Notes: generated from the sequence alone by a model not told the origin. DNA of 64,000 bases from Halarcobacter sp. (GCA_030145305.1 JAQYVX010000002.1:1-64000), one strand, 5' to 3'. Shown: positions 34,896 to 55,300, numbered from the stretch's first letter. A program made the numbers and translations.

Positions 34896-35840
34896 TTATC
34901 TTAAATTATTTAACTCTAAAAAATTTGAAGAACGCTTATGTCCTAAAGATTCTGCTTTTTTCATCCACTCTATAGCTTTTACTTCGCTTTTAGCTACCCC
35001 TAAGCCCTTGAAATAAAAAAAACCAAGATAGTACATTGCTTTTGTATTATTTGTCTTAGAAGCTTCCATATACAAATCAAAGGCTTTTTTATAGTCAACA
35101 TTTACTACATTTCCTTCTCTGTAAATATCTGCTAGTTTTATTTGGGCTAGGACATTTTTGGCATTTGAAGATTTTTCAAATAGTGCTATTGCAGTTTCAT
35201 AGTTAATTTTTACGCCATCTCCTGATAAATATATAAGCCCAAGATTGTATTGAGCGATAGGATTATTGGCATTGGCTGATTTTTTATACCAATAAAGTGC
35301 TTTTTTTAAATCTTTTTTTATTCCTTTTCCAAAGTAGTACATTGAGCCTAGATTATTTTGAGCCATAATCACGCCTTGTTCAGCAGCTTTTTTGTACCAA
35401 GAAAAAGATTTTAGCAAATTTTCTCTATTTGTACTTTTTTCATATATCATTGCAATATTCAATTGAGCTAAGGCATAACCTTGTTTTGCTGATTCTTCAT
35501 AATAATATTTTGCTTTTTCTAAATCTTTTTTGACTGTTTCACCCATATAATACATATATGCTAAGTTATTCAAAGCTTGCATATTTCTACTATTTGCAGC
35601 TTGTTCATACCAAAAAAAAGCAAGCTTTTTATTAACTTGTGTTCCTAAGCCTTTGTAATTCATAAGTCCTAAGTTATATTGAGCACTTACATTATCATCT
35701 AGTGCTAATAATGTAAATTGCTCTAAAGCAGTACTATAATTTTTATTTTTTAGATTTAAACTTGCCTCTTCTAGGCTTGAAGCATTTACGTTAGATATAT
35801 AAATAGTAGTAAAAAAAAGTAGGTATATAAATTTTTTCAT
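34896..35840 (-). CDS. Periplasmic Sel1-repeat protein
   Basis: 314 residues: a signal peptide (about 1-20, ending SNVNA) and then about seven Sel1-like repeats of 36 residues (A-x-x-x-L-x-x-x-Y-x-x-G-x-G-V-x-x-D-x-x-K-A-x-x-x-Y-x-K-A-A). Examples are AQYNLGLMNYKGLGTQVNKK and AQNNLGSMYYFGKGIKKDLK. Such solenoids scaffold protein-protein contacts and are common in Campylobacterota as exported proteins. It is the last gene of the adhesin run, 8 bases after the lipoprotein gene, and probably shares its operon. Partner unknown. Confidence 0.88.
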   Translation of the reverse strand: MKKFIYLLFFTTIYISNVNASSLEEASLNLKNKNYSTALEQFTLLALDDNVSAQYNLGLMNYKGLGTQVNKKLAFFWYEQAANSRNMQALNNLAYMYYMGETVKKDLEKAKYYYEESAKQGYALAQLNIAMIYEKSTNRENLLKSFSWYKKAAEQGVIMAQNNLGSMYYFGKGIKKDLKKALYWYKKSANANNPIAQYNLGLIYLSGDGVKINYETAIALFEKSSNAKNVLAQIKLADIYREGNVVNVDYKKAFDLYMEASKTNNTKAMYYLGFFYFKGLGVAKSEVKAIEWMKKAESLGHKRSSNFLELNNLR

Positions 35841-35848: not shown

Positions 35849-36667
35849 CTATTCTTTCTCTTTATTTAATTGCTCATCTTTTATATCATTTTTTATTTCA
35901 ATTAATGTTCTATCAATATTCGAATTTACTTTACTATTAAGTTCTTGAATTTCTTTATCTAAAGCCTCATCAGATATTTTTTCTTCACTTGTTTGATTAT
36001 CAATTAAATCTTCTTTTCCTAAAATATCATTTGTTGTTTCATCTAATGCAAAATCTATATCTTCATTTAAAATATCATCACTAATTTCATTTAAGTCTTG
36101 GCTTTCTCTTCTATTTTTAATTAATATATTTTTTACTATATCATCTTTTGTAGCAGCAGAATTATTATACATATCCAAGCCATCACAAAGAGTACCTCTT
36201 ATATTTCTTATAGTATCACAAGAAATCCATTTATCATTTATTCCTAATAGATAATCAAGTCTTCTCCAAAAAAGTTCATGGCTATATTTACTTAAATATT
36301 CCTTGTCTTCTTCATCAAAATCTGTGATTCTTACTAATTCTAGTTTTGCAAAAGAAGTATTGTCTTTTTCATTAATGCTTAAATTCCATCTATCTTCATG
36401 AGTTACAGGATATAAGAAGAAGTGGGACATTTTTGTTTTTGAAACTTCAAGATGGTCTCTATATGAATCAATTCTAAACTTTCTTTTATCGGCTAATAAA
36501 AAGACTTTTTTTGCTGCTTCAAAGATAGCATCTTTTGAGATTTCTTTATATTCTCTTGTTGTAAAATATTCATTTTTTTTACTCTGTTCATTTACTTTTG
36601 TATCAAGATTCTTAACTGAACAACCTGCAAAAAGTATTATAAAAACTAAATAAATAAATTTGTACAT
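35849..36667 (-). CDS. Lipoprotein of unknown function in the adhesin locus
   Basis: About 272 residues. MYKFIYLVFIILFAGCSVKN is a lipoprotein signal with lipobox FAGC. The ATG at 36667 has AGGA 6 bases upstream and starts 7 bases after the LapD-like gene; a longer frame to 36700 would overlap that gene and hide the lipobox, so I reject it. The folded part (about 30-160) has DHLEVSKTKMSHFFLYPVTH and CDTIRNIRGTLCD with two cysteines that could pair. The tail is acidic and probably disordered. I recognise no family. Its position suggests a role in the LapD/TolC assembly. Confidence 0.75.
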   Translation of the reverse strand: MYKFIYLVFIILFAGCSVKNLDTKVNEQSKKNEYFTTREYKEISKDAIFEAAKKVFLLADKRKFRIDSYRDHLEVSKTKMSHFFLYPVTHEDRWNLSINEKDNTSFAKLELVRITDFDEEDKEYLSKYSHELFWRRLDYLLGINDKWISCDTIRNIRGTLCDGLDMYNNSAATKDDIVKNILIKNRRESQDLNEISDDILNEDIDFALDETTNDILGKEDLIDNQTSEEKISDEALDKEIQELNSKVNSNIDRTLIEIKNDIKDEQLNKEKE

Positions 36668-36674
36668 TTCTATC

Positions 36675-38855
36675 CTATCGACTTGTGGCATAAGTGCCAA
36701 GTCTTTCTAAAAAATCATAATCAGTTTGAAGGTTTACACTATCTGTGATAATATTTATATTATTTAATTCTCCAAAAATGATTATATTTTTAACTTTATG
36801 TTTTTTCACAATATCATTTGTAAAGTTATTTGTATAATCTTTATTAATTCTAATATAATCTAAATTTAAATCTTCTAATTGATTTAATGGATACTCATCA
36901 GTTTTATATCTCTTAAGAAGAATTTTTGCACCTATTTTATGAACTTCTTTTATAAATTCTACAAAAATCTCTTTATGTAAATAAGCACTATATGAAGTTA
37001 TACTAAATACTATATTTTTAGTTATTTTTTCATTTTCACTAAATGTATTTTCTAACCAAGTTATAAACTCTTCATTTTCAAGAGAATTTATAGAAAGATT
37101 TATAGCTATTTCATGCGTAATTTCTTTTTCTTTTATATAATTTATTGCTTTTAGAATTACTTCTTTATCAAATTGATCCGCAATTTTTAATTTTTGTGCA
37201 ACTGAAACAAAAGAACCAATTGAAAGTTTTTTACCTTCATGGTCATACAATTGAGGTGAAAGTTCATTCATAGCTAAAACTTCAGGATCGTCAAATAAGA
37301 AAGAATCTAATACAAAGTCGATTTCAAAATTAGCATTGTTTATAACTTCAATTACATTATTATCAATTAAAGAATAGTTCTTTTCAATATCTTTTTCACC
37401 AATAATATAATAAGTATTTATTCCTTTTTCTTTAGATACTTCGTAAGCATTAGTTAAAGAGTCTAAAACCGTATCTAAACTACCATATAAATCAAAAACT
37501 GTTCCACCAATATGAATTAGATCATCAGGAACATCATAAATAAATGGCATTCTATCACTTATTTCTTCAATAATTTCTTCACACATTTGCTGTGCTTGTT
37601 CAAGATTAATATTTCTTGCAATTATTGCAAACTCTGAACCATAAAATCTATACATTTTCATATCAGTTTTACTAATTTTAAATATCACATTTTTTATAAT
37701 ATTAGAGTAAGATTCTATAAAACTATTTATATATTCTGAATCATGATTTTCAGTTATTTGAGATAGTTTATCAATTTTAATAGTAAAAACATAAGCATTT
37801 ATGGAAGAAATAAACATACTTTTAATATCAAAATCAAAGATACTTCTATTTGGAAGTCCTGTTAAACTATCAGTATAATTTTTTTCCTCTATAGACTCTT
37901 TATTTGCATTAATTTCATTTCGTAAAGCTGCCATTTTTGAAGATACTTTTGAAACTTTTTTTGTAAGTTCTTTAATCTCTTTTGTTCCCTCAAATTGTCC
38001 TTTATCTAAGACTGTAAATTTATCTTCAAGAATATCATCTAAATATTTATTTATATACGTAACAGGATTTGTAACATATTTTTTAAATATAAATTTATGA
38101 TAAAAGCCTAAAATAAATAATAAGGGTAAATAAATGACTAAATCAAAGATAATAATATTTACAAGAAAAGATTGTAACTCACTTTTTATTTTATTACTAT
38201 TTAATTTATAAGAGATAACAGCTACATTGACATTATCAATCTTTACCTCGTGTAGTTTATTCGAGGTATCAATTGTAATCAAAGAGCTAAACCACGAAGA
38301 GAATTCATTTTTATCATCTCTTTTTAGATTTATATTTGAGAAGTCTAGTTTTGTAATAAAGTTTGTAATTTCATTTTTTTTATAAACTTGGTATCTGATA
38401 TTTATAGGTTGTTCTTTATTATAACTTCGTGTTGCTACAAATTGATATAAAGAACTTTTCTCTAATCTTTTAATAAATCCATATCTTGCATCAACAACTA
38501 TTTCAGCTATATCCCAAGACTTATCATCAAAGTTAGGAGTTGCATTTATTAAGCTCTCTTTGTTAAATATAAATTTACTATATTCAATTTTAATTTCATC
38601 AAATAGTGTTGTTTCTAATACTTTTTTAATTTCTTTTTTAATTATTGTTTTATTAAAATCTAGAATGTTATTATTAACTTTTGAATTTAGATAATTTATA
38701 TTTAATTCATAATTGTTTTTAGCTTGAATTAATACTTTTTCTTTATAACTTGTAAAATAAAAATAACTTGTAAATAGCAATGTTATAAAAAGAAAAACCA
38801 ATAATATTGTATTGTTTTTAGAGCTGCTATCTGTAAATCTATTTAATCTTTTCAT
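36675..38855 (-). CDS. LapD-like c-di-GMP receptor: periplasmic domain - HAMP - degenerate GGDEF - degenerate EAL
   Basis: 726 residues. A membrane helix (about 17-35), a periplasmic domain (about 40-220) of the LapD_MoxY_N kind, a second helix (about 228-250), then a HAMP-like stretch. The GGDEF domain keeps LTGLPNRSIFD but its active site is YGSEF, and the EAL motif is replaced near NELSPQLYDHEG, so neither synthesis nor hydrolysis of c-di-GMP is expected. This is the LapD design: binding c-di-GMP in the EAL domain makes the periplasmic part hold the LapG protease and so keep an adhesin on the cell. Its ATG overlaps the TolC-like gene stop (ATGA). No LapG gene is in the window. Confidence 0.85.
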   Translation of the reverse strand: MKRLNRFTDSSSKNNTILLVFLFITLLFTSYFYFTSYKEKVLIQAKNNYELNINYLNSKVNNNILDFNKTIIKKEIKKVLETTLFDEIKIEYSKFIFNKESLINATPNFDDKSWDIAEIVVDARYGFIKRLEKSSLYQFVATRSYNKEQPINIRYQVYKKNEITNFITKLDFSNINLKRDDKNEFSSWFSSLITIDTSNKLHEVKIDNVNVAVISYKLNSNKIKSELQSFLVNIIIFDLVIYLPLLFILGFYHKFIFKKYVTNPVTYINKYLDDILEDKFTVLDKGQFEGTKEIKELTKKVSKVSSKMAALRNEINANKESIEEKNYTDSLTGLPNRSIFDFDIKSMFISSINAYVFTIKIDKLSQITENHDSEYINSFIESYSNIIKNVIFKISKTDMKMYRFYGSEFAIIARNINLEQAQQMCEEIIEEISDRMPFIYDVPDDLIHIGGTVFDLYGSLDTVLDSLTNAYEVSKEKGINTYYIIGEKDIEKNYSLIDNNVIEVINNANFEIDFVLDSFLFDDPEVLAMNELSPQLYDHEGKKLSIGSFVSVAQKLKIADQFDKEVILKAINYIKEKEITHEIAINLSINSLENEEFITWLENTFSENEKITKNIVFSITSYSAYLHKEIFVEFIKEVHKIGAKILLKRYKTDEYPLNQLEDLNLDYIRINKDYTNNFTNDIVKKHKVKNIIIFGELNNINIITDSVNLQTDYDFLERLGTYATSR

Positions 38856-41800
38856 CTAACACTTCCAATTTTTTCAACAAGAGGTTTTGATTCATATATC
38901 AAAGGATGGAGTGTCTCTGTTTTAGCCCTAGCTTCTGCTTTAGTATTAAAGATTCCATAATAAATTGTACTTTTATTAGCATTTTTTTCTATTAAAACAT
39001 AATTTGGATCTAATCCAAATCTGTGAGTGTACCATTTGACTTTATTACTATCTATTGTAATTAGTTTTAAAGTATAGTTATTTTTTGAAGTTGTATCAAA
39101 TTTCTTTTTAAAGTTTTTTAATCTTGTTGCGTAAGGAATTTCCACTTTTTTAGGAGTATCTTTTAATCCATTAGCAAAATCAATTTCTTCTATTTCTTTA
39201 TTAGAAAAAGTCATTTTTGTAGGGTTTTTTTCTATTTTTAATTCTGTAAGTCTTTTTTCTTCTGCTAGTCTTTTCTCTTCTACTATTTTTGCAAGTCTTA
39301 AATCTTCTTGTTTTTTTAATTCTGTTAATCTTTTTTCTTCTGATAATCTAACTTTTTCTAGTCTTTTCTCTTCTACTAGTTTTGCAAGTCTTAGCTCTTC
39401 TTGTTTTTTTAATTCAGCTAATTTTTTCTCTTCTGATAATTTTAATTCTGATTTCTTTTGAGCCTCTAATCTAACTTTTTCTAGTCTTTTCTCTTCTGCT
39501 AGTTTTGCAAGTCTTAGCTCTTCTTGTTTTTTTAATTCAGCTAATTTTTTCTCTTCTGCTAGTTTTGCTTCTACTTTTGCTTTCTCTTCTTTTATAAGTC
39601 TTAGCTCTTCTTCTCTTTTTAATTCAGCTAATTTTTTCTCTTCTGATAATTTTAATTCTTTTTTCTTTTGAGCCTCTAATCTAGCTTTCTCTTCTTTTAT
39701 AAGTCTAGCTTTTTCTAGTCTTTTATCTTCTGCAATTTTTGCAAGTTTTAGCTCTTCTTCTCTTTTTAATTCAGCTAATTTTTTCTCTTCTGATAATTTT
39801 AATTCTTTTTTCTTTTGAGCCTCTAATCTAACTTTTTCTAGTCTTTTTTCTTCTGCAATTTTTGCAAGTTTTAGCTCTTCTTGTTTTTTTAATTCAGTTA
39901 ATCTTTTTTCTTCTGATAATCTAACTTTTTCTAGTCTTTTCTCTTCTGCTACTTCTTCTTTTATTTTATCTATGTTCTTATTTTTAGGTAAAATACTTTC
40001 TAATTCATTTTTTATCTCTTTTAATACTTTTTTCTTATCTTTGTCTATATCATCTAAACTTGGTCTTTTTGTTATTGTCAGAATTTCTTCATTTTCTATA
40101 TTTTTTAATTTTAATTTTTCTTCTTTGATTTTTTCACTTTTGATTTTTTGATTTTTAATCTTTTCATTTTTTGTTGGTATTTTTATCAAATCTTTTTTTG
40201 ATACATTTATATATTCATACTCAACTGGCACGACTTTTTTTGTGTTTAAATCAAGATTATTATTAAATTGTCTTTTAATAGATGATATTTTTTCAACAAT
40301 AGGAAAGATATTAGCATTTTCAATAATAAAACTATTTACTTTTTCTTCTAAATCTTTATTATAATCCTTATAAATTCCAAAAACTAGTTTTATAAGCTGA
40401 CCATTATCTCCATATTTAAAGAAAAAAGACTCTTCATAAATATCATTTTTTATAATAAAAGCTTCTACACTATCAATATTTGTGAAAGAAGATATATTAA
40501 TAGTATATGCACTATCTTTTGAATTTAAAAACTTGTTTTTAAACTCTAAATTTGTTTCAAACTCTTCTTTTTTTATTGCTTGTCTAATTTTTTCTACTAT
40601 TTTAATTTTTGGTTTAGTTTTTTTAACTTCTATTTTTAAACCATCAAGATATTTATTATATAAAACTTTTATATCTTTTACTTTTCTAATTTCATATTTT
40701 TTATTTAGCTTTTTTGCCTCTAAAGCTTCTAAATAAGCTTTAGCTTCTAAAATAGTTTTAAAGTTATTATGTGCAATTCTTGTTTCAATATTATATAGTT
40801 TTACAACATCATATGAAAATGAATTTGTATCAAAATTATTCTCTTTTATAAAGTCAAATGAATCATAAATATTTCCAAAAGAAGAAATTTCAATCATATA
40901 GCTATCATCATCAAAATTTAAAAAGTCTTCTTGAAATTTTTTAATATTATCATTAATTGAAGGTTCAGGAAGAGGAATATCTTTTATTATTTTTTCTTTT
41001 TCTTCCAATAAGTTTTTTTCAACTTCTTCTTTTTTGATTTTTTTGCCTGTATTTAAATCTAAATCAATACTATCGCCATCTTTTGGCAAGATTACTCTTT
41101 TGTAATCACTACTGCTAAAATCAATAAATCTTGAATTTTCTGGGTCTACATCAAAAAATGATGATAAATCTCCTGTTAACTCTAAGATATTAAAAAAGTC
41201 TGTTATATTACTTTTCTCATAATTTACAAGCTCTGTTTCTGCTGCATTTAATTGTCTTTGCCCTTGTAACAAAGTATTTAAATCCTGTTCTCCAAGCTTA
41301 AATGTATCCCAATAAGAACTAACCATTTTTCTAGATGCTTTTATTTCTGCAATTGTACTATCTAATGCTTGAGAAACTGAGCTTATTGAAGTATAAATCT
41401 TCGATAAATTCCATTTTAACTTTCTTTTTTCTTCAGATAATTTATAGTTTAAATCCCGTATTTTACTATTTGATTCAAGAACTTTATTTTTATCTCTTCC
41501 ACCATTGAATATATTATATGAGAGTTTTATTTTTCCATTTAAATCAGATTCTTCTTCATCTAAATCTTCTGCTGCAGTACTTTTTTTATATGAAAGTTCA
41601 AAATCAACTTTTGGCCTAAATTTTGCCTTTGCTCTTTTTTGAATAAATTTTTCATCTTCTATTGATTTGTAATAATTTATTAAATCTTTGTTATTTTCCA
41701 AAGCTCTTTTATAGAGTTCATCAAAATTGCTTACATCTACATCAAAATTTCTTTCATAGGGTAATGTTTTTTCAAAATTTACTCCAACTATATATTCATA

Positions 41801-42601
41801 ATATCTTAATGATTCAATAAATTTTGAATTAACTTTTACTAACTTTGTCATAGCATTTGCCACATTTGCTTTTATTGAAGTTAAATCGCCAATTGAAGCT
41901 GCTCCATTCTCATATTTAATTGTAACAATTTCCAAAATCTTTTTTAATTTTTTCATATTTCGTTCATTTACCATCACTGAACGATTTGCAAAAACTACTC
42001 CAAAATAAGCTTTTATAGCTTTTTTTATTTCTTTGTCTAAAACATTTTTATATTGATTTTTTGCAACTTCTAACTTTTTTTCAATACTTTTTACATTGTT
42101 TAAGGTTGCTCCACCTGCATAGATATTTTGTCTTAATACTACCCTATAATTATTATCTTTGTAAAATTTAAATCTATTACCCTCTTCTCCACTAGGAGTA
42201 GATCTAGTTTTACCATAATTATATTCAGCATCAATAGTAGGATAATAATCAGCAACTGCATTTTTTAGTTTTAGTTCATATTGAATCACTCTTTCTCTAG
42301 CTGATTTTAATAAATCAGTACGAGATAAAGTTTCAAGAACTGTATCAATTAGTTTTACTTGTTTGTAATCTGAAAGATCAATCTTCCCTTTTTCTATATT
42401 TCCTTTGGAAACTTTAGGAGATGAATAATCACCTATGATTTCTTTCTTATTTATAACTTTTAAAGGCTCTTTTTTTCCTTTTATTTTATTTAATTTTTTT
42501 GGTGCGATTAAATTTAAATCTTTATTTTCATCATCAAGGGCAAAGGAATATGTAGTTATGAATATTAGTATTAATATATATTTAAATAAATTAATTTTCA
42601 T
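38852..42601 (-). CDS. Giant TolC-family outer-membrane protein with SPOR-like domains and charged repeat linker
   Basis: 1249 residues, against about 450 for ordinary TolC. A signal peptide (about 1-21) and a short spacer lead to the TolC channel (about 80-485): ADYYPTIDAEYNYG, RQNIYAGG, IKYENGAASIGDLTSIKA, YNIFNGGRDKN, and GEQDLNTLLQGQRQLNAAE. A long extension follows. Two SPOR-like segments (DSYMIEISSFGNIYDSFDFI near 565, DSAYTINISSFTNIDSVEAF near 700), a lysine/glutamate-rich repeated linker (about 870-1155), and a third SPOR-like end (NNYTLKLITIDSNKVKWYTH and IYYGIFNTKAEARA, about 1165-1249). SPOR domains bind denuded peptidoglycan, so the extension may span the periplasm and clamp the channel to the wall. 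It overlaps both neighbours (stator gene TAATG, LapD gene ATGA). Confidence 0.85.
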   Translation of the reverse strand: MKINLFKYILILIFITTYSFALDDENKDLNLIAPKKLNKIKGKKEPLKVINKKEIIGDYSSPKVSKGNIEKGKIDLSDYKQVKLIDTVLETLSRTDLLKSARERVIQYELKLKNAVADYYPTIDAEYNYGKTRSTPSGEEGNRFKFYKDNNYRVVLRQNIYAGGATLNNVKSIEKKLEVAKNQYKNVLDKEIKKAIKAYFGVVFANRSVMVNERNMKKLKKILEIVTIKYENGAASIGDLTSIKANVANAMTKLVKVNSKFIESLRYYEYIVGVNFEKTLPYERNFDVDVSNFDELYKRALENNKDLINYYKSIEDEKFIQKRAKAKFRPKVDFELSYKKSTAAEDLDEEESDLNGKIKLSYNIFNGGRDKNKVLESNSKIRDLNYKLSEEKRKLKWNLSKIYTSISSVSQALDSTIAEIKASRKMVSSYWDTFKLGEQDLNTLLQGQRQLNAAETELVNYEKSNITDFFNILELTGDLSSFFDVDPENSRFIDFSSSDYKRVILPKDGDSIDLDLNTGKKIKKEEVEKNLLEEKEKIIKDIPLPEPSINDNIKKFQEDFLNFDDDSYMIEISSFGNIYDSFDFIKENNFDTNSFSYDVVKLYNIETRIAHNNFKTILEAKAYLEALEAKKLNKKYEIRKVKDIKVLYNKYLDGLKIEVKKTKPKIKIVEKIRQAIKKEEFETNLEFKNKFLNSKDSAYTINISSFTNIDSVEAFIIKNDIYEESFFFKYGDNGQLIKLVFGIYKDYNKDLEEKVNSFIIENANIFPIVEKISSIKRQFNNNLDLNTKKVVPVEYEYINVSKKDLIKIPTKNEKIKNQKIKSEKIKEEKLKLKNIENEEILTITKRPSLDDIDKDKKKVLKEIKNELESILPKNKNIDKIKEEVAEEKRLEKVRLSEEKRLTELKKQEELKLAKIAEEKRLEKVRLEAQKKKELKLSEEKKLAELKREEELKLAKIAEDKRLEKARLIKEEKARLEAQKKKELKLSEEKKLAELKREEELRLIKEEKAKVEAKLAEEKKLAELKKQEELRLAKLAEEKRLEKVRLEAQKKSELKLSEEKKLAELKKQEELRLAKLVEEKRLEKVRLSEEKRLTELKKQEDLRLAKIVEEKRLAEEKRLTELKIEKNPTKMTFSNKEIEEIDFANGLKDTPKKVEIPYATRLKNFKKKFDTTSKNNYTLKLITIDSNKVKWYTHRFGLDPNYVLIEKNANKSTIYYGIFNTKAEARAKTETLHPLIYESKPLVEKIGSVR
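39235..39955 (-). repeat. Repeat array coding the K/E/L-rich linker of the TolC-like protein
   Basis: Imperfect tandem units coding variants of EEKRLEKVRL, SEEKKLAELK and QEELRLAKLAEEKR follow one another for about 240 residues. At DNA level, blocks such as TCTAGTCTTTTCTCTTCTGC recur many times. The units predict a long single alpha-helix or coiled coil and are prone to length change by slippage. Confidence 0.85.
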
Positions 42602-43368
42602 TATCTTTTTATCCTAATTACTAAATAACCATTTTGTTCATTTACTTGTTCTTTTATTTGAGTGCTTGCTAATAAATCAACTCTTACATCTTTTTTATCA
42701 TAGTCAAGCTTTCTTATTAAATTTCTAACCCCAATTGTTCTAGCTAATGAAATTTGTTTAGCTATAGTTGCACTAGCTTGTCCTTTTGGATCAGCAGCTG
42801 TAATCATAATTTTATGATTTTTATATTTTTCTTGTGTGTCTTTTATAAATACTTTTAATTTTTTTGTAATTGCATTATCAATGAAAATTTCATTTCCTTT
42901 AAATGAAATTATAAAATAATCTTTTGTAGAAATTGTTGCTTGTTTTGATTTATTATCATCATCTTTTCTATCTTTAACATCAATTCCTCCTGATTCAATT
43001 TCAGACTCTTTTTTCTCTTTTGCTTTTACAGTTTTTTCTTCAATAATCTTTTTTAATCTTATTATTTCACTTTGCATTTTTTGTACAGAAAGAGTAGGAC
43101 TTGGTTCTTTTTGTGTAATAGATTCAATATCTGATTCACTTTGTTTAATTTTTTCTTCTTGGATTTTTATTTCTTTTGGATTATCATTTAAAATCAAGTC
43201 ATCTGTAGTTATAGAACCAGTATATGAAACTTTATATTTAAATTGCGCGTAATAACCAAGATTTACTAAAACTACTAGTAAAAATAGCAGCATTACTAAA
43301 ATAACTGATGAAAATATATCAACAAATGATGGCCAGGGGTTAAATTCTTCATCACATCTTTTTGCCAT
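42601..43368 (-). CDS. MotB/OmpA-like stator subunit
   Basis: 255 residues. One membrane helix near the N-terminus (FVDIFSSVILVMLLFLLVV, about 16-38) carries an aspartate (Asp17) at the position of the proton-binding Asp of MotB and ExbD. A periplasmic linker with a coiled-coil stretch leads to an OmpA-like peptidoglycan-binding domain (about 155-255; IMITAADPKGQ and ISLARTIGVRNLI hold the usual D and R). The gene follows the MotA-like gene by 11 bases and overlaps the TolC-like gene. With its partner it should form a proton-driven stator anchored to the wall. It is not the flagellar pair, judging by context and by the MotA-like tail. Confidence 0.85.
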   Translation of the reverse strand: MAKRCDEEFNPWPSFVDIFSSVILVMLLFLLVVLVNLGYYAQFKYKVSYTGSITTDDLILNDNPKEIKIQEEKIKQSESDIESITQKEPSPTLSVQKMQSEIIRLKKIIEEKTVKAKEKKESEIESGGIDVKDRKDDDNKSKQATISTKDYFIISFKGNEIFIDNAITKKLKVFIKDTQEKYKNHKIMITAADPKGQASATIAKQISLARTIGVRNLIRKLDYDKKDVRVDLLASTQIKEQVNEQNGYLVIRIKR

Positions 43369-43379: not shown

Positions 43380-44516
43380 CTATTTACTTTCTATCTTATC
43401 AATTCGATTATTTAAAGAATTAACTAATTCTATAAGTAATTTATTATTCTCTTCTTGAAGGGCAAGGCTTTTTTTAACAGTTCTATGTTCTGCTAAAATA
43501 ACATTTGATATTTCTTGTAAAGACTCTTCCATCATTGAAGCATTTGAAAATTGATTAACATTTAGTTCTCTTAAATTATTTACAACATTTTCAAGTAAAA
43601 CTGATTCTTTTTCTGTACTTCTATTTGAATTAACTAAATTTTCTGTAATAAGATTATAAATATCTTCTGATGATTTATTTGATTTATCAAGTTTGTCAGT
43701 AAAGTCTCCCATCGTATCAACGAAGACATCTAAGAATCCACCTTTCATATTCATACCATCAGCTGTTGCAGGAATCATTCCCCTTATACCTTCAGCATCT
43801 TCCATAGATTCTGAAGTTTGAGAATCTATTATTTTCCCTTTCATCCAATCTTCAATATCATTCATAAAAGCAGCTTGATTTCGTGAAAGTATATATTGCA
43901 TTACATTTAATATAATTGCAGAGGCAACTCCAAATAGTGAAGAAGCAAACCCAATTGACATACCACTTAAAGGGCCTGCAAAGTTAGTCATTACTTCACC
44001 GATATCAATATCATCACCACCAAAAGATAAAATAATTGCACCCATTTCATCAATAGCAACTAGAAGTCCTGTAAACGTTCCAAAAAGTCCTAGCATAAGT
44101 GAAGTTCCAACGAAAAAGCTTGTATAACTTTTTTGATTAAAGAATTGATCCATTAGCCATTCTGTTACATCTTTTGCTTCACCTTCTGTAAAATAAAGAA
44201 CACCTTTTTTAGCTCTTTTATTAAACATATGTGCAATAGTTGCAGGAAAGATACCCGTAATTCCTTCTAAGTAAAACTCTAAAGCTTGACCTTTTTTATA
44301 AGCTAGAATACCAAAAGTACCAGAAAGCATGGTAAGTTTTATTGCTGCTTGATAAAGTATTAAAAGTCCAATTGAAAATATTGTTAAAATTGCAATATTA
44401 AAAGTTATCGTTGCAATAAAAAATGATTTAATTAATTCAAGATTTGAAAAAATTAAAAAAACCAAGAAAAGAATAAATATAAAATAAATCTTTAATATTT
44501 TTATACGTCTCATCAA
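43380..44516 (-). CDS. MotA/TolQ/ExbB-like proton-channel subunit
   Basis: 378 residues. Four membrane helices (about 8-26, 33-55, 132-155, 186-208). The two conserved channel helices read GLFGTFTGLLVAIDEMG and GPLSGMSIGFASSLFG, then VASAIIL, the MotA/ExbB proton-channel pattern. A C-terminal cytoplasmic tail (about 225-378) is predicted helical and coiled coil, longer than in ExbB. It lies 7 bases after the Cache gene and 11 bases before the MotB-like gene. It should form a pentameric channel around a dimer of the next gene product and turn proton flow into mechanical work on the secretion channel or adhesin; that target is inference. Confidence 0.87.
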   Translation of the reverse strand: MMRRIKILKIYFIFILFLVFLIFSNLELIKSFFIATITFNIAILTIFSIGLLILYQAAIKLTMLSGTFGILAYKKGQALEFYLEGITGIFPATIAHMFNKRAKKGVLYFTEGEAKDVTEWLMDQFFNQKSYTSFFVGTSLMLGLFGTFTGLLVAIDEMGAIILSFGGDDIDIGEVMTNFAGPLSGMSIGFASSLFGVASAIILNVMQYILSRNQAAFMNDIEDWMKGKIIDSQTSESMEDAEGIRGMIPATADGMNMKGGFLDVFVDTMGDFTDKLDKSNKSSEDIYNLITENLVNSNRSTEKESVLLENVVNNLRELNVNQFSNASMMEESLQEISNVILAEHRTVKKSLALQEENNKLLIELVNSLNNRIDKIESK

Positions 44517-44523: not shown

Positions 44524-45477
44524 CTAGAACATAAATAGTAATATTGAGATTACTAAACCTAAAGCAACTGTAGTAACAGTTTTTGTCATGTTGTGAACAA
44601 TATTAACAAAAGCACGACTTCCATCAACTGTTTCACCAAATACAATAAGCCCAATAACATTACCATTTATGTCAGAAACTTTATAAGAAGCTCTAAAGTA
44701 TGTTTCATCAACAGAATAACCAACTTCAAGCATCTCTTTTAATCCATCTTTACCTAAGTCAATAATCTTTGAAAAAAATTGTCCATCATATTTTAATTCT
44801 TCAACATGTAAAGTGTCAACCACTTCCCTATATTTTCCATTTCTTGTTTTTATTGATAATTGATTTAACATTCTTTCTTCAAGTAAGAAAAGAAAAACAA
44901 CATCATCTCTTAAATACTCTTTCTTTTGATTATGAAGTTCATCTTTTAACTCTAAAATACCAACTAAAACACCATCTTTCATAATTGGTTCAAGATAAAC
45001 ATAAAATATACCATCTTGTAATACTTCTATTCCAAATATTTTTGATTTTGTAGTTATTACTGAGTTTACACTATTTCTATATTGATTAACTTGATTTAAA
45101 ACTGGATAAAACTTTAAATGAACAGTTTCAAAACCAGTTTTTTTAAATTTTTCATTAAAATCATTTATTTTTTCTTCCACTAATGCAATTTCATTATTGT
45201 CTATATTATTAATAAATGTTTTGTTTGATTCAAGAGCAATAATAATTTTTTTATAAGATTCTTCTTTTTTGAAAACTCTATTTTTATAGTTTTTAACATA
45301 ATTATTTGCAATGTTATTATAAACATCTCTTGAAACGTTATCTGTTAGACTTGTAAGAATATACAAAGATAAAAAGATACCTGAGATTGAAAGAACAGCA
45401 AGAATTGTAAACCACAATCCTTTCTTTTTTTTCAAATCTTTTAGAAAATTTTGAAGAAACTTAAAAAAACTAAACAT
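44524..45477 (-). CDS. Membrane-anchored Cache-domain protein without output domain
   Basis: 317 residues. A short basic N-terminus, a membrane helix (about 21-43), a large periplasmic region (about 45-290) with Cache features (FYVYLEPIMKDGVLVGILEL; YFRASYKVSDINGNVIGLIVF), and a closing membrane helix (about 296-317) that ends the protein. No kinase, methyl-accepting, GGDEF or EAL domain follows, so it cannot signal alone and presumably acts through a partner helix, perhaps the MotA-like channel encoded 7 bases downstream. A 107-base gap separates it from the HlyD gene, the longest gap inside the locus. Confidence 0.8.
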   Translation of the reverse strand: MFSFFKFLQNFLKDLKKKKGLWFTILAVLSISGIFLSLYILTSLTDNVSRDVYNNIANNYVKNYKNRVFKKEESYKKIIIALESNKTFINNIDNNEIALVEEKINDFNEKFKKTGFETVHLKFYPVLNQVNQYRNSVNSVITTKSKIFGIEVLQDGIFYVYLEPIMKDGVLVGILELKDELHNQKKEYLRDDVVFLFLLEERMLNQLSIKTRNGKYREVVDTLHVEELKYDGQFFSKIIDLGKDGLKEMLEVGYSVDETYFRASYKVSDINGNVIGLIVFGETVDGSRAFVNIVHNMTKTVTTVALGLVISILLFMF

Positions 45478-45584: not shown

Positions 45585-46859
45585 CTATTGCTCAACTAAT
45601 GCATTTTTTCCAATGTTCTTTAAAGGTTTAATAATATATTTAAGAATTGTCTTCTTTCCAGTTAAAATATTTATATTTGCAACCATTCCAGGAAGGATTG
45701 GCAAATCAGGTGCAAATTGATTTACATCAGCTTTTACTTTTACTAAATAAAATACACTTCCACTTCTATCTTCAAAAGAATCGGCTGAAATAGAGATTAT
45801 TTCAGCATTTAATAAGCCATATTTAGAAAAATCATAAGCAGTAATTTCAACAGAAACATTTTGCCCACTCCAAATCAAGGCTCTATCTGAGGTATTTATT
45901 CTAGCTTCAATAGTTAAAGAATCTTCAATTGGAGTAATCTCAGCCATTTTATCTCCAGCTTTTACTATTCCTCCAACTGTATAAAAATATAATTTATTAA
46001 TAATTCCATTTACAGGAGAGACTACTTCTTTTCTAAGTTCTCTATCTGTATTAGCTTTCTTTTTTTCAATTAATTTATTAATCTCTGCTTTTATGCTTGA
46101 ATATTTTTGTAAATGTTTTGATCTTATTTCTGATTTTACAGTTTTGATTTTTCCTCTTGCCTCTTGAATTTCTTCTTTTATAATGGGAATAGAGTTTCTT
46201 GTTTCTGATAATTTAGTAACAATACTTTGCTTTTTTGAAAGTTCACTTATATATTCTTTTTTTGAAACAGCATTTTTCCTATACAAAGATTCAAGTATTT
46301 TCATATTTGCTTGAGCAAGATTTAATTCTAAATTGAGGTTTTCATATTTAGTTTCTGCTTCTTTTAGCTTGTATTTTTTTTGTTTTAATTGATCTTCTGC
46401 AATACTAATTTTAGTTTCTCTATTTTTTAAATCTTCGTTAAAAATTCGTTTTTCATTTTCTACAATATCAGGAATTTTTTCAAGTGATTCTTTTGGAAAA
46501 ATAATTTCTTTTCTTTCATCAATTGAGGCTTTTAATCTTATTAAATTTGCTTCAAAAGCTAATAAATCTATCTCTTTTGCTTTTAAATCTGCTTTAAAAA
46601 ATTCATTTGAAAGAGTATAAATAACATCGCCTTTTGAGACTTTATCTCCCTCTTTTACAGCTATATTAGAGATAATACCACCTTCAAAGTTTTGTAATAT
46701 TTTTGTTTGGCCAGATGGTACTACTTTTCCACTTCCTCTTACTACTTCATCAATCTCACTTAAAGAAGCCCAAGCTAGAAATGCAATAAAAAATAACATA
46801 ATAGGAACAACTGAAACATAATAATTCCATTTTGTTTCTTCAAATAATCTAGCACTCAT
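45585..46859 (-). CDS. HlyD-family periplasmic adaptor of the type I secretion system
   Basis: 424 residues. A membrane helix (about 16-32), a biotinyl-lipoyl-like half (EGGIISNIAVKEGDKVSKGD), a long alpha-helical hairpin (about 90-270), the second half VVSPVNGIINKLYFYTVGGIV, and a C-terminal beta-barrel ending near LPILPGMVANINILTGKKT, which is the HlyD/LapC signature. It bridges the ABC transporter and the outer-membrane TolC. Its ATG touches the stop of the ABC gene. This matches LapC of the Lap systems. Confidence 0.93.
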   Translation of the reverse strand: MSARLFEETKWNYYVSVVPIMLFFIAFLAWASLSEIDEVVRGSGKVVPSGQTKILQNFEGGIISNIAVKEGDKVSKGDVIYTLSNEFFKADLKAKEIDLLAFEANLIRLKASIDERKEIIFPKESLEKIPDIVENEKRIFNEDLKNRETKISIAEDQLKQKKYKLKEAETKYENLNLELNLAQANMKILESLYRKNAVSKKEYISELSKKQSIVTKLSETRNSIPIIKEEIQEARGKIKTVKSEIRSKHLQKYSSIKAEINKLIEKKKANTDRELRKEVVSPVNGIINKLYFYTVGGIVKAGDKMAEITPIEDSLTIEARINTSDRALIWSGQNVSVEITAYDFSKYGLLNAEIISISADSFEDRSGSVFYLVKVKADVNQFAPDLPILPGMVANINILTGKKTILKYIIKPLKNIGKNALVEQ

Positions 46860-48989
46860 TTATACTTGCCTTTTTTGTTGTAATGAAGCTAAGACTTTAT
46901 CTTTTGGTCCATCCGCTACTATTTTACCATTGTTTAATACAATCACTCTATCTACAAGCTCTAAAGCTGCAAATCTGTGAGTAATTACAATTAATGTTTT
47001 ATCTGATAATATTTCTTTTACATGTTTTATCAAAGTTTTTTCTAATCCAACATCTAAGCCTGTTGTTGGTTCATCTAAAACCATAATTGGAGGGTCATTT
47101 AAAATTGCCCTTGCTAATGCTACTAAATGTCTTTGTCCCACAGAAAGATTCGAACCACGTTCCCCTACTTGCAAACCATCACCTTGACCTGATTTTTTAA
47201 TTAACTCATCTAATCCTGTCAATTTGATTAAAGCCATCATTCTTTCTTTACTAATAGGCTTTGATATTTCAATATTCTCTTTTAGTGAACCTGAAAATAA
47301 AAATGGCTCTTGAGGCATAACTCCAACATTTTGCCTAACTTCAACAGGATGAAGTGTCGAAATTTCATGTCCATCTAAATAAATACTTCCATTTGTAGCT
47401 GTATCTAGTCCTGTTAAAAGCCTTAAAAAAGTTGTTTTCCCAGCTCCTGTTTGTCCAATAATTCCAACTTTCTCGCCTGCTTTTATTTTTATATTACAAT
47501 CCATTATTGAGGCATATTTACTATTTTTATAGAAAAAACTAACATCAGAAAACTCTATATCACCTTTTAATTTTCCAATACCTACTTCCACATCTTTTTC
47601 ATTTTCTAAAGGCAAATGCCAAAACTCATTTATATTATTTAAAGATTCTTTTATTTCTTTGAGTCTAATAACCATCATAGAAGTTTGAATAACAGGAACC
47701 ATAGCCCTACTTGAAAGAATAGTTACAGCAATTAATCCCCCAACCGTTAGGTTTTTATTTGCAATTTCAAAAACTCCCACAACAATAACAGCCATAGTAA
47801 CAAATTGTACTACTGTTTGTGATAGATTCATTGAAAATACATTTAATGATTGGATTTTGTGCCCAATATTATCTGTAACAGCAACTAAGCTTCTCCAATT
47901 AAATAGCTTTGTAGAACTTGCATTTGAAAGTTTTATTATCTCACTTCCTTGTAAGGTTTCAACTAAATAGGAGTTTTTTGATTGTATATTTTCAATATTT
48001 TTTTTACTTAAGTTTGCAATTGGTATTTGCATAATTACATTAAAAATAATAATAATAATTGCAACTATAAGAGGAACTGCTGCAACAGCAGGAGAGATAA
48101 TAAATATTACAATAACAGCCATAAAGAAAAAAGGTAAATCGATAATTTGAAGTATAGATTTTGTAGCAAAGAAGTCTTTTATTTGACTTAGTTCTCTAAA
48201 AAGATTTGCTTTTGAACCAATTAACATATTGTCATACTCTGATTTTAGGTTAAGCATTCTTTTCATTAGCTCTTCTTCTAAATAAACCCCTAGTTTTTTT
48301 CCTACTTTTTCAATAATATGATTTCTTACACTTTTAAAATATATATCAAAAAGTAAAATAATAACAACACCAAAAGCTAAAACAAAAAGTGTTTCCACTG
48401 CATTATTTGGAACAACTCTATCATAAACACTCATTGTAAATAAAGGCACAGCAAGGGCAAAGATATTTATAAAAAAAGTAAGAAAACCTATTTCTATATA
48501 TGAACGCCAAAAAGTCTTAACAGGATTCCAAAACCAAGATTTACTCCTAGTTTCATTTAACATTTTCTCTTTTTTTGCATCTCTAAATATTAAAATTGCT
48601 TTTTTAAAATGTTTTAAAAAACTAGGATTTTCTTTTATTTGCTCTTTTGTTTTTGGATTATAAAGATATACGTCTCTATCTTTTTTAATATATACAAAAG
48701 GATTATCGTTTTTATCTAGAATAATACAAGGAAAAAAATGAGAAGGAATTTCTGAGGCTAAAATATCTTTTTCAATAGCACTTAAACCTACTTCATTTGC
48801 AACATCAATCGCTATTTCAGGAGTAAATCCTAAAGTAGATTTTGCAGAGAAATTTTGTATGGTTTCTAAGGAAATATCTCCAAAATAAAAATCTAATATA
48901 TATTTTAGCGAATATAATAAAGGAAAATCTTCTCTTTGTTTTTGTTCTTCTATTTCATTATTAATTTCACTATTTAAATTTTGTTCCAC
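46860..48989 (-). CDS. Type I secretion ABC transporter with degenerate C39 domain (LapB type)
   Basis: About 709 residues. The N-terminal 130 residues are a C39-like domain lacking the catalytic cysteine, as in RTX exporters that keep it only to hold substrate. A six-helix membrane domain (about 165-440) follows. The ATPase has Walker A GQTGAGKTT, signature LSVGQRHLVALARA, Walker B IMVLDEPTTGLD and a switch histidine in VITHRFA. It exports the adhesin directly out of the cell with HlyD and TolC. I chose the GTG at 48987-48989 because AGGA lies 5 bases upstream; a TTG at 49004 would be the longest alternative. Confidence 0.93.
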   Translation of the reverse strand: MEQNLNSEINNEIEEQKQREDFPLLYSLKYILDFYFGDISLETIQNFSAKSTLGFTPEIAIDVANEVGLSAIEKDILASEIPSHFFPCIILDKNDNPFVYIKKDRDVYLYNPKTKEQIKENPSFLKHFKKAILIFRDAKKEKMLNETRSKSWFWNPVKTFWRSYIEIGFLTFFINIFALAVPLFTMSVYDRVVPNNAVETLFVLAFGVVIILLFDIYFKSVRNHIIEKVGKKLGVYLEEELMKRMLNLKSEYDNMLIGSKANLFRELSQIKDFFATKSILQIIDLPFFFMAVIVIFIISPAVAAVPLIVAIIIIIFNVIMQIPIANLSKKNIENIQSKNSYLVETLQGSEIIKLSNASSTKLFNWRSLVAVTDNIGHKIQSLNVFSMNLSQTVVQFVTMAVIVVGVFEIANKNLTVGGLIAVTILSSRAMVPVIQTSMMVIRLKEIKESLNNINEFWHLPLENEKDVEVGIGKLKGDIEFSDVSFFYKNSKYASIMDCNIKIKAGEKVGIIGQTGAGKTTFLRLLTGLDTATNGSIYLDGHEISTLHPVEVRQNVGVMPQEPFLFSGSLKENIEISKPISKERMMALIKLTGLDELIKKSGQGDGLQVGERGSNLSVGQRHLVALARAILNDPPIMVLDEPTTGLDVGLEKTLIKHVKEILSDKTLIVITHRFAALELVDRVIVLNNGKIVADGPKDKVLASLQQKRQV

Positions 48990-49016
48990 TATTTTCCTAT
49001 ACAATTTTAATATTTT

Positions 49017-50810
49017 TTATTTTACTTTTATTCTAAAATTACTAAAAATCTTAGCATAAATAGACTGAAATACGCTTTCCCAAACGCCAAGGCTTTTTTG
49101 TCTAAAAATTGTAACACTTTTATACCAAGAAGAATTAGCTCCTTTTATTTGCCATCTCCAATCAGGAACTTTTGGAACTAAAACCCAAGTAGGGATATTT
49201 AAAGCGCCACAAAGATGTACTACTGAAGTATCTGAAGAGATTACTAAATCAAGTTCTTTTATTAAAGAAGCTGTTTTGGAAAAATCACTCAAGTTGTTTG
49301 TATAATCAATTATTTTATCTTCTAAACCTAAGTCTTGAATCTCTTTTTTATCTTCTCCAATTTGTAGATTATAGACATTTATTTTATCATTATTTATAAG
49401 AGGTAAAAAGCTTTTTAGTTGTAATACTCTTTCTTCATAACTTTCTGATGTCGTTGAAGCTGACCAACATATTCCTATATTTAACTTTCCTTTTTCTTCT
49501 TTAACTTCTAATTCTTTATCTTTTGAAGCATATAAATATGGAGTTTTCACTATTAGTTCTTTTACAGAAGAAAGTCCTAAAATATAAGGCATACTCATTA
49601 TTGAAAGATGATAATCAAAGTTTGGTGTAGCTTCACTTCTATTTGTTAGAATATCAATCTCATCAATACACTTAAAAAGTTCTTTTAGTTCATCTCTACA
49701 TTTAACTACAATTTTACATTTAAATTTCTCTTTTAATAAAGGAAGAAATCTAATTAATTGAATTGAGTCCCCAAAGCCTTGTTCACTGTGAAGTAAAATA
49801 GTTTTATTTTCGACGTTTTCAACCCCTTTAAACATAGGTTTTGAGAAAATATCTTTATTATTTAGAATATGTCCAGACATTTCTTCCTTTTTAAATCTCC
49901 ATTCATACTCTTTAAAACCTTCTTTTAAATCCCCTTTTGCTAAAAGAATAGTTGCTAAATCAAAGTGAGCATTTTCAAAATTTGGATTTAATTCAATTGC
50001 TTTTTTATATGCGTCTATAGCTTTATTTGTTTGTCCCAAATATTTATATGAAGTTCCTACATTACTATAAGCATTTGAGCCATTAGGCTCTAAATCAATA
50101 GATTTTTCATGATATTTTGCAGCCTTTTTATAATCTTTTAGCTTGTTATATACATTTCCCAAATTTGTATATGCACCTGCATTTTTAGGGTTAAACTTTA
50201 TTGCTTTTTCTAAATTTTCTATTGCTTTTTCATGCATTTTAAGTTTGTTATAACAAGCCCCTATATTAGAAAAGACTTCTGTATACGAGGGATTTATATT
50301 AAAAGCTATTTTAAAAATATCTATAGCTTGTAAATATTTTTTTTGTTTATAAAGGATTACTCCAATATTATTTACTGCTTTTTCAAACTTTGGATTTACT
50401 CTAACGGCATTTTTATAAGCACTAATTGCTTTTTCATCATCATTTAGCTTTTCAAAAACCATTCCTATGTTATTATATCCATGATAATTTTTTGGATTTG
50501 CTTTTATTCCATCTGCATATACTTTTAATGCTGCTTTATAATTTTTTGTATCTTTTAAAAGATTTCCTAAATTATTATATGTCATATAATTTTTTGGATT
50601 TAAATTAATAGCTTTTATATAACAATCATAGGCTTTTTTATTTTCCCCTTGTGCTCTATAAATAACCCCTAAATTTCCTAAAGCTTCATTGTTTTTTTCA
50701 TCTAATTTTAAAATCTCTAAATAGTTTTTTTTTGAAACTTCTAAGTCATTTTTCAAATAAGACTCATAGGCTTTTTTTAATAAATTTATAATATTTTCTT
50801 TACTGCTCAC
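49017..50810 (-). CDS. TPR protein with C-terminal glycosyltransferase-like domain
   Basis: 597 residues. Residues about 15-300 hold seven or more tetratricopeptide repeats (for example EALGNLGVIYRAQGENKKA and AYTNLGNVYNKLKDYKKAA). The C-terminal part (about 320-580) has LLHSEQGFGDSIQLIRFLP, NIGICWSASTTS and VISSDTSVVHLCGALNIPTW, matching the two-Rossmann fold of GT9/GT41-type transferases often annotated as TPR glycosyltransferases. Such genes accompany giant adhesins and could add sugar to the protein before export. The start is a GTG with GGAAAG 4 bases before. Substrate unknown. Confidence 0.85.
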   Translation of the reverse strand: MSSKENIINLLKKAYESYLKNDLEVSKKNYLEILKLDEKNNEALGNLGVIYRAQGENKKAYDCYIKAINLNPKNYMTYNNLGNLLKDTKNYKAALKVYADGIKANPKNYHGYNNIGMVFEKLNDDEKAISAYKNAVRVNPKFEKAVNNIGVILYKQKKYLQAIDIFKIAFNINPSYTEVFSNIGACYNKLKMHEKAIENLEKAIKFNPKNAGAYTNLGNVYNKLKDYKKAAKYHEKSIDLEPNGSNAYSNVGTSYKYLGQTNKAIDAYKKAIELNPNFENAHFDLATILLAKGDLKEGFKEYEWRFKKEEMSGHILNNKDIFSKPMFKGVENVENKTILLHSEQGFGDSIQLIRFLPLLKEKFKCKIVVKCRDELKELFKCIDEIDILTNRSEATPNFDYHLSIMSMPYILGLSSVKELIVKTPYLYASKDKELEVKEEKGKLNIGICWSASTTSESYEERVLQLKSFLPLINNDKINVYNLQIGEDKKEIQDLGLEDKIIDYTNNLSDFSKTASLIKELDLVISSDTSVVHLCGALNIPTWVLVPKVPDWRWQIKGANSSWYKSVTIFRQKSLGVWESVFQSIYAKIFSNFRIKVK

Positions 50811-50820
50811 TTATCTTTCC

Positions 50821-52344: not shown

Positions 52345-55300
52345 TTATGGTTGTATTATAATATCTAAAGTAACTTGTGTTCCATTATCATCAAGAGTAT
52401 ATGATCCACTAGTAATTGCTGACCCTGAATCTCCATATAATGTATCATCTCCTGTTCCTGTAGTTCCATTACTATCTGTGAATTTTAATTTTGAAGCATC
52501 ATCTGAATCCAAAATTAAACTCAATTTATTGCTTCCATCTGTCCAAGCTCCAATTAACTCTCCTGTTAATTCAAATTCAGCTCCAGAAGAAGCATTTAAA
52601 TCAAAATTTGTAAAATCAAGACTCTCTATATTGTCAAATGAATTGATATGTCCAAACTCTTCATCTGCTGTAATTGCATCTGAAGTTCCAGTTAAATTAA
52701 CTTTGTCTCCTGTTGTATCATTTCCTCCATTAATTATTTTAGTATCAATATTTGTAAAATCAAGAGTAAATTCATCATTCCCATCTTCTCCATTTATATT
52801 TGCTGGTTCATCACTTGTGATATTTAATTTATCATTTCCATTTGATAAATTAAGATTTTCAAAGCCATTTACCTTACTAAAGTCTAAATCTGTTTGATTT
52901 GTAAACTCATTAGTAAAGCTAATAGTGTCATCCACCCCATCACTATCTGTTAAATTCATAGTCATATTATTAAACTGGTTTGCTGAATCGAATTCTACTT
53001 CATTTGTTCCATTTGCAAAATTAATATCTTTTATAGAAGCTGAATTATCAACATTATTGAAATCAAGTGTACCTGCATTTGAATAATCAATTGTAATATC
53101 ATCATTTATATCTGTACTTGAAAGTTCTAAATCTAAATTTGTTGCAAGATCAGATTCTGATACAGTCGCAGTTACTTTTTGATTTGTAGCATTTGCTATT
53201 GTATTTACATTTACACTTGAAGTATCATCATTTATTGTTACTTCTTCATTTCCAAGTCCTGCAAAATTATCTTTATTTGTTACATAAAGTGTTTCTAAGT
53301 CTGTGAAATCACCAGTAACTTTAGTAGCATTTACTGTTATATCATTTGCAGTTTTAGCATCTAAACTATTAAGGTCTGTAGCAGTTGCTGTTGCACCATT
53401 TACAGTTAATGATATTTCATCTATTGATTTACTTGTAAGAGTACTATTTAAAGTAGCAGCATCATTAGCCGCAGCTGTTGCTGTAATTGCACCTGAGGTA
53501 TCAGCTGAAACAATATTTATATCACTTATATCTGATGTTCCACTTAGTGTTGCTGTATAATTTGCATTTGTATTTATATCTGCTGCTGCTATTGCTGCTA
53601 ACTCTGCCCCTGTTCCTGTTATGTTTGTTATACTTGTAGCATCTACGGTTATAGATGTTTTTCCATCTAAATTTAAAAGATCACTAGCACTTGCTGTTGT
53701 ACCTGTTGTAGTTAAATTAAGTTTATCAGATGCACTTGCATTATTTAAGGCAGTATTTAAACTACTTGCTGTTCCTGCTGTTACAGTAGCTGTTACATCG
53801 CCACTTGTTTTTCCTAGGATAGTGTTTACATTTGCAGCACTTTGTGTATCACTTATAGTAACTGCTTCATTTCCAAGTCCTACTATTACAGATGAAGAAT
53901 AAAGTGCGTTTAAATCACTGTAGCTATCAGTAAGACTAGTAATAGAATTGGCATTTATTGTTTCAGATGTTTTAGAACTTAAAGCTAATAAATTATCAAC
54001 TGAAGCTAAAGTTCCATCTGTAAGGGTTAAAGTCAATTTATCAGCTGTATTTGCATTTAATAAAGCTGCATTTAAAGCTGAAGCTGTTCCTGCTGTTACT
54101 ACTGCTGTTACAACTCCTGCTGTATCATTTGCTATTGTATTTACATCTGTTGCACTAGATGTATCACTTAAAGTTGTTGCATAGTTTGTATTTGTTGTAA
54201 AACTTACATCATTTACAATAGCTAAGACATCTGCTGTTGTTCCATCAAGTGTTGTTGAAGCTTGAATATCTATATTTCCAGATGTTGCTGTATTTACTAT
54301 TTTTGCATCTGCTGCGCTTAGAGTATCTGAAATAACTACATTCCAATCTCCATCAATTCCTGCGCTTGTTTTATTTGTGATTAAAGTTTTTACATCTGAT
54401 ATTGAACTACTTGTTATATTTGCAATACTTGAAGCGTCTACATTTATTGATGTTTTTGAATCAATAATATTTAAATCTCCAGCTGTTGCACTTATATCTG
54501 CTAGAATAATTGTTAAAGCATGAACTCCTCCAGAAGAAGTTAATGTTTTAAGAGTAGTTACATCTCCTTGAGTGATTGTTGCTGTTATTGTTCCTGTAGT
54601 TTGTGAGTCAATTGCAATTTGTTCTGAAACTGTTGCTTCTCCTACAGTAACTGTAACATCAACATCCACGGCTGTATCTATCCCACTAGCTTCTACTACT
54701 GTTTTAATATCTGTTGCTGTTCCTGTAATTGTATTTACATTTGTATCTGTATCAATAGCTTTAGATGTTTTTGTATCAAGTGTTATAAGTTCTGAGGCTA
54801 CGGCACTTGTATCTGTTACTGTTATATTTAAAGAATTGTTTCCATTATCATTAGTTAAATTAGCTAAAGCACTCATAGAACCGTCACTAATGTCAGCTGT
54901 TATAATACCTGTTGTTATATTATCCATTGAAACTAGCTCTAAAGCTGTCATTGGGTCACTAACCTTTGCATTTATATCTGTTGCTGTAACAACTGTTGAG
55001 GAGTTAATTACTGTTGTTATATCTGCTTTTGTTCCTACAATTTCATTTAAGGCTACGGCTGTTTCTATATTTACAGATGTTTTTGTATCAAGAGTAATAA
55101 GCTCAGAAGCTAAAGCTGTTGAATCTGTTACTGTTATGTTTAAAGCATTATTTCCATTACTATTAGTCAAATTAGCTAAATCACTCATAGCTCCATTACT
55201 AATATTAGCTGTTATTACTCCTGTTGTTTGTGCATCTATAGCTATTTCTTGGGCTACTGTTGTTGTTCCTGAATCTATATTTATATTAACATCGCTTGCT

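Follow-up and report, generated by a model that had tools for sequence, protein, structure and literature searches.

Two described type I secretion systems (T1SSs) come closest to the locus reported here. The system of Salmonella pathogenicity island 4 (SPI4; SiiABCDEF) serves a giant surface protein and comprises a C39-like ABC transporter, a HlyD adaptor, a TolC-type channel and an auxiliary MotAB-type inner-membrane pair. This pair, SiiAB, is a proton channel in which SiiA binds peptidoglycan, and it affects the retention of the surface protein SiiE (PMC6272769, PMC12607715). In the Lap/Bpf system (LapA and LapBCE, with LapD and LapG) an LssB-type ABC transporter, a HlyD protein, a TolC channel and a degenerate GGDEF/EAL protein stand beside a giant adhesin. 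The channel component of Escherichia coli, TolC, has 471 residues, and outer-membrane factors of this kind extend to the wall layer (PMC8277102). SPOR domains, represented by E. coli DamX and Pseudomonas aeruginosa RlpA, bind peptide-stripped glycan strands partly through main-chain contacts, together with a basic patch and one conserved Gln (PMC6895207). Here we describe a T1SS channel with a tail of SPOR domains, encoded in a 64,000-nucleotide stretch of DNA from Halarcobacter sp. (GCA_030145305.1 JAQYVX010000002.1:1-64000; this whole stretch is referred to as the window). The protein and its parts lie as follows.

38852..42601, minus strand: TolC-SPOR protein, a single open reading frame of 1249 residues (PF02321, 5.5e-34; syntenic orthologues in the loci of 7/7 relatives)
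41162..42361, minus strand: TolC (OEP) channel domain, residues 81-480 (TIGR01844, 4e-49; PF02321)
40643..40948, minus strand: SPOR domain 1, residues 552-653 (repeat profile, E=2.1e-30; model pLDDT about 90; VIA-align Z 7.0 against the DamX SPOR)
40253..40549, minus strand: SPOR domain 2, residues 685-783 (repeat profile; AlphaFold2 pLDDT 96.9; Foldseek and VIA-align matches to DamX and RlpA)
39233..39970, minus strand: K/E/L-rich predicted helix, residues 878-1123 (AlphaFold2; composition; DNA repeats)
38858..39121, minus strand: SPOR domain 3, residues 1161-1248 (repeat profile, E=2.5e-23; model pLDDT about 90; VIA-align Z 4.9 against the DedD SPOR)

By its profile matches the protein is a TolC/OEP outer-membrane factor, with its T1SS partners (the ABC transporter and HlyD) adjoining. 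The N-terminus resembles a signal peptide and has no lipobox. PF02321 matches in two stretches, as expected of a pair of OEP repeats spanning some 400 residues, and the TIGR01844 model (type_I_sec_TolC) scores below its own cut-off of 225 bits. The channel part stops at about residue 480-490, close to the residue 485 proposed in an earlier interpretation of this DNA (hereafter the sequence-only reading), and roughly 760 residues lie beyond it. With 1249 residues against the 471 of E. coli TolC, the protein is indeed almost three times the normal size.

The three tail domains, which the sequence-only reading had called SPOR-like, are genuine SPOR domains as judged by sequence profile, by PF05036 matches in relatives and by predicted fold. 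They are copies of one domain, in that a profile made from any one of them recovers the other two with E <= 5e-23, and the same repeat profiles find two to five copies per protein in relatives. A family profile of 24 repeats, when compared with solved structures, has the SPOR domain of E. coli DamX (2lfv) as its top match (E=1.3e-12). PF05036 is itself matched by 17/24 of the family repeats (best 5e-8). One homologue (L079) lies above both Pfam cut-offs within a single protein (OEP 134 bits; SPOR 24.7 bits, cut-off 21). A stand-alone protein of four repeats from the same genome as the window reaches 52.7 bits against the same SPOR cut-off. The check for SPOR that had been proposed at the outset, a PF05036 search of the protein itself, gave no match even at E<=1 for the intact window protein. 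A plain Pfam scan taken alone would therefore have wrongly dismissed the finding; the nature of the window tail is revealed only through its relatives and through structure.

Structure prediction, also proposed earlier, supports the assignment. In the AlphaFold2 model of residues 501-1249 all three SPOR domains are confident and show the beta-alpha-beta-beta-alpha-beta RNP-like fold expected of SPOR. Foldseek with the model of SPOR2 gave DamX (E 7.9e-3, probability 1.00) and the RlpA SPOR (0.039, 0.99) as its top two matches, and VIA-align gave Z values of 7.4 to RlpA (2.3 Å, 73 residues aligned) and 7.1 to DamX. Taken alone, such Z values are moderate, and other RNP-like folds score nearly as well, so the main weight lies on the sequence profile. 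SPOR2 is the most uniform copy, with the motif YTIN, FTIN or FSIN in 17/17 second repeats, while SPOR3 ends one residue short of the C-terminus in the window protein, as it does in most orthologues. The domains thus share fold, length and sequence pattern with those of DamX and RlpA. DamX acts in division at the inner membrane and RlpA is a lipoprotein enzyme of the outer membrane, whereas the copies described here are arranged in tandem on an outer-membrane secretion channel and are without the glycan-contacting Gln.

Between SPOR2 and SPOR3 the model contains helices at residues 878-982 and 998-1123 (pLDDT about 60-76). The break between them (983-997) is of low confidence, contains neither Pro nor Gly and may be an artefact of the prediction. 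Residues 873-1126 are free of Pro and Gly, and 64 Glu, 61 Lys and 47 Leu are found among the 255 residues counted. The K/E/L helix noticed in the sequence-only reading is therefore real, although its quoted length of 280 residues was slightly high: about 245 residues are predicted to be helical, roughly 37 nm if straight. No hydrophobic period of 3.5 or 3.67 extends across the whole helix stretch, though local coiled-coil registers may occur. The underlying DNA consists of imperfect tandem repeats (39260-39920) with periods of 93, 123 and 210 bp. Orthologues of the same operon have spacers of 86 to 488 residues ahead of the final SPOR, and their longest stretches free of Pro and Gly measure between 76 and 437; some of these proteins have no long helix, and the SPOR count ranges from two to five. 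While the linkers vary, SPOR1 and SPOR2 are recognizable in all complete orthologues, including those of other families, with identities to the window copies of 33-79% compared with 45-85% for the TolC part.

The genes surrounding the channel gene are the following.

42601..43368, minus strand: MotB/OmpA-like subunit (alignment of eight orthologues; weak PRK09039-type peptidoglycan-binding match)
43380..44516, minus strand: MotA/ExbB/ZorA-like subunit (PF01618, E=0.017, below cut-off; ZorA model, E=0.011; conserved pore region)
44524..45477, minus strand: dCache-like periplasmic sensor protein (PF14827, 7.1e-4, below cut-off; kept in the operon)
45585..46859, minus strand: HlyD-family periplasmic adaptor (TIGR01843, 8.2e-101, over cut-off)
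46860..49004, minus strand: LssB-type T1SS ABC transporter with a C39-like domain (TIGR03375, 2.1e-220, over cut-off; PF03412)
52345..63999, minus strand: giant RTX protein, C-terminal part (the frame continues to about C6:80184 of the same genome, G000; about 9,280 codons)
36675..38855, minus strand: degenerate GGDEF/EAL protein, LapD-like arrangement (Pfam; phmmer)
35849..36700, minus strand: conserved unnamed operon protein (synteny)
34896..35840, minus strand: Sel1-repeat protein, last gene of the conserved block (PF08238, 6.5e-62)

The OmpA-like neighbour mentioned in the sequence-only reading proved to be half of an OmpA-like/MotA-like pair that adjoins the channel gene. The MotB/OmpA-like subunit has one transmembrane helix with an invariant Asp17, and D193 and R210 are invariant in its OmpA-like C-terminal region (eight orthologues). 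The Pfam and ZorA scores of the MotA-like subunit are below cut-off, and the assignment of the pair leans also on the conserved transmembrane Asp and on operon position. A putative inner-membrane pair of the SiiAB type, MotA-like and MotB/peptidoglycan-binding-like, is thereby present in the T1SS operon. In 7/7 relatives the genes present on the contigs run in the order TPR protein, LssB-type ABC transporter, HlyD, dCache-like sensor, MotA-like, OmpA-like and TolC-SPOR. Where the contig extends further, the degenerate GGDEF/EAL protein, the unnamed conserved protein and the Sel1 protein follow. The operon is conserved across Arcobacteraceae, and wider loci show that two other families of this order have kept most of the block. 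The giant RTX protein is likely to be the substrate of the adjoining T1SS.

Compared with SPI4, the predicted substrate is of the RTX rather than the bacterial immunoglobulin-like (BIg) type, and the operon additionally encodes a dCache-like sensor and a degenerate GGDEF/EAL protein. By position, the inner-membrane pair would correspond in role to SiiA and SiiB. To our knowledge SiiC, the SPI4 channel, has no SPOR tail. Relative to Lap/Bpf, the MotA/OmpA-like pair and the SPOR tail are additional. The EAL match of the degenerate protein begins at profile position 39, so that the signature motif is missing, and its GGDEF motif reads GSEF; phmmer matched it at 2.5e-10 to 3pjw, a cyclic di-GMP-binding GGDEF-EAL protein that we take to be LapD. 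No LapG-type protease gene accompanies this LapD-like receptor in the operon; the three LapG-family genes of the genome lie elsewhere (C77, C65 and C6:191106).

Several further features of these loci were observed. Between the RTX and T1SS genes (window 49017-52332) lie genes for a TPR protein, which belongs to the conserved block, an FkbM-type methyltransferase and a 227-residue protein. The first 448 residues of the giant RTX frame match no Pfam family. In one relative (G021) the orthologue of the unnamed operon protein (L100:15650-17284; 545 residues) carries a C-terminal SPOR of the same type, as though the domain had moved between adjacent genes. On a 121 kb plasmid of Arcobacter sp. AZ-2023 (CP146529.1; L092) the operon is present from the ABC transporter to Sel1, with the ABC and GGDEF/EAL genes each split into two coding sequences and IS3-family transposase genes after the block. 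The channel on this plasmid is annotated merely as 'TolC family protein'.

The arrangement, in which a T1SS TolC bears a multivalent SPOR tail and the operon follows an SPI4-like logic, is more general than first noted. The SPOR type occurs in 22/41 genomes of near relatives and in 9/249 genomes of a phylum sample, where 12/16 of the proteins bearing it are TolCs. In a tree of 41 TolC proteins, SPOR-tailed members fall into three separated parts: the clade linked to MotA/OmpA-like pairs, the lineage to which the channel of this genome's second T1SS belongs (L063, with a single SPOR) and a third lineage (L029/L098, L073, L083 and L102) with up to three SPORs. A single clade of all SPOR-tailed TolCs was rejected (approximately unbiased test, p-AU 5e-45). 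At least four changes, gains or losses, are needed on the tree, in which long branches separate the lineages; the tree is unrooted and does not prove the direction of change. L030, whose frame of 1360 residues contains a SPOR, was scored as SPOR-bearing in this analysis. In the two outlying families of the MotA/OmpA-linked clade (G030 and G040) the operon has the MotA/OmpA pair and a TolC without SPOR, and the tail may therefore have been added to an already existing MotA/OmpA-linked machine.

The second T1SS (L063:8316-15113; G000:C70) comprises the TolC with one SPOR (589 residues), an LssB-like ABC transporter and HlyD, followed by an ankyrin-Big-OmpA lipoprotein-like protein. The stand-alone protein of the same genome (L064:4066-6003; G000:C72) has 645 residues and four SPOR domains and adjoins fusA, rpsG and rpsL; other genomes have frames of 574-657 residues with several matches of the same type. 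TolCs with an OmpA C-terminal domain (PF00691), both domains over their Pfam cut-offs, were found in three other genomes: L020 (G010) and L021 (G016) from Arcobacteraceae, which also have TSP3 repeats, and L024 (G034) from a relative. By eye, L022 and L023 appear alike. Judged by profile, peptidoglycan-binding tails of TolC come in another form as well, with OmpA in the place taken here by SPOR. In a tblastn search of a plasmid collection, a weak test for TolC-SPOR beyond Campylobacterota, the SPOR part was reached only in the Arcobacter plasmid among the 25 listed of 64 matching records. The sequence-only reading knew of no TolC with this layout, and we likewise found no description of a TolC-SPOR fusion among the open-licence papers searched.

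TolC is a trimer in which the C-terminus leaves the equatorial zone on the periplasmic side. Nine SPOR domains would consequently be present per trimer, hanging from this zone in the vicinity of the wall. We consider it probable that the tail provides a multivalent peptidoglycan anchor for a channel that would export a giant RTX surface protein. Two SPORs would lie near the channel, and the third, on a long and length-tolerant helix, could reach along or across the mesh. The domains would bind peptidoglycan glycan, probably peptide-poor strands, and so anchor or concentrate the channel at wall sites. Powered by the ion gradient, the MotA/OmpA-like pair, itself probably wall-anchored, might govern whether the adhesin is retained or released, a role that has been proposed for SiiAB in Salmonella. 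Anchoring would help the channel to withstand the force exerted on a surface protein about 9,000 residues long. A tether is favoured by the SPOR identity of the domains, by the precedent of SiiAB, by the recurrence of peptidoglycan-binding tails on TolCs (SPOR on three T1SS lineages and OmpA on others), by the retention of SPOR1 and SPOR2 while linkers vary, by the conservation of the operon with a MotB-like partner that keeps its transmembrane Asp and OmpA-type Asp and Arg, and by the predominance of TolCs among proteins with this SPOR type.

Several observations weigh against this tether. The conserved glycan-contacting Gln (Q270 in RlpA, Q351 in DamX) is kept in 0/54 repeats, its position being occupied by Asn in all copies of SPOR2 and by Glu or Lys in most copies of SPOR1, and the equivalent of DamX W416 is likewise not kept. 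This Gln does not define the SPOR fold and many of the contacts are main-chain (PMC6895207), yet its absence from all repeats leaves the peptidoglycan ligand unproven. The tie to the cell wall envisaged in the sequence-only reading is accordingly plausible from what SPOR domains usually bind and is weakened by the missing residue; peptidoglycan binding is the leading interpretation rather than a result. In addition, neither the OmpA-like nor the MotA-like protein matched solved SiiA, ZorB or MotB/MotAB in a profile search of the PDB, and the SPOR-free TolCs of G030 and G040 mean that the machine does not require the tail.

The same residues bear on two other explanations. The tail could be a localization signal rather than a mechanical anchor, directing the secretion system to sites of division or to young poles. 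Amidases expose denuded glycan there, and the giant adhesin would then be displayed at one place on the cell. In support, SPORs of known function are directed to denuded glycan at the septum (PMC6895207), avidity would rise with several copies per protein, and the tail has been gained on several T1SS channels. With the Gln and W416 equivalents missing, we regard this as possible but on balance unlikely, and it is compatible with anchoring rather than exclusive of it. The altered binding residues, which have evolved position-specific identities, and the SPOR of the G021 neighbour would suit a tail that has lost glycan binding and now docks operon partners (the OmpA-like subunit, the HlyD adaptor or the unnamed neighbour). 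This is a doubtful alternative, since the same SPOR type is found on TolCs of unrelated T1SSs without a MotA/OmpA pair and on a stand-alone protein. More ambitious than the tether, and distinctly improbable as it stands, is an energized machine in which the inner-membrane pair and the outer-membrane SPOR-TolC both grip peptidoglycan. Working against this common, fixed scaffold, the ion gradient would drive a mechanical change in gating, adhesin retention or positioning of the channel.

The variable region argues in turn against two further readings. A long, charged helix free of Pro and Gly between two wall-binding regions invites the idea, put forward in the sequence-only reading, that it spans the periplasm and gauges its width. 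However, the spacer and Pro/Gly-free lengths differ so widely among orthologues, some of which lack any long helix, that a tolerant, extendable spacer is favoured over a ruler; the helix is made of imperfect DNA repeats and, at about 37 nm, exceeds the usual periplasm, making a ruler extremely unlikely. Variation in SPOR number and linker length might instead point to a largely neutral tail with little function, produced where a tolerant C-terminus has let repeats expand and domains duplicate. We judge this very unlikely given that SPOR1 and SPOR2 are kept in all complete orthologues across families at the identities given above, that SPOR3 ends next to the stop codon in most orthologues and that tails have been gained repeatedly and independently.

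The wall tether remains the preferred interpretation. The position of TolC is normally ascribed to its barrel and its inner-membrane partners. Repeated SPOR tails on separate channel lines suggest an export machine for giant surface proteins that is fastened to the cell wall and, together with the independent OmpA grafts, indicate selection for wall-fixed channels, apparently where giant surface proteins are exported. If this is correct, SPOR domains would gain a use beyond division and morphogenesis, and a SiiAB-like motor role in type I secretion would become testable in a wall-anchored version.

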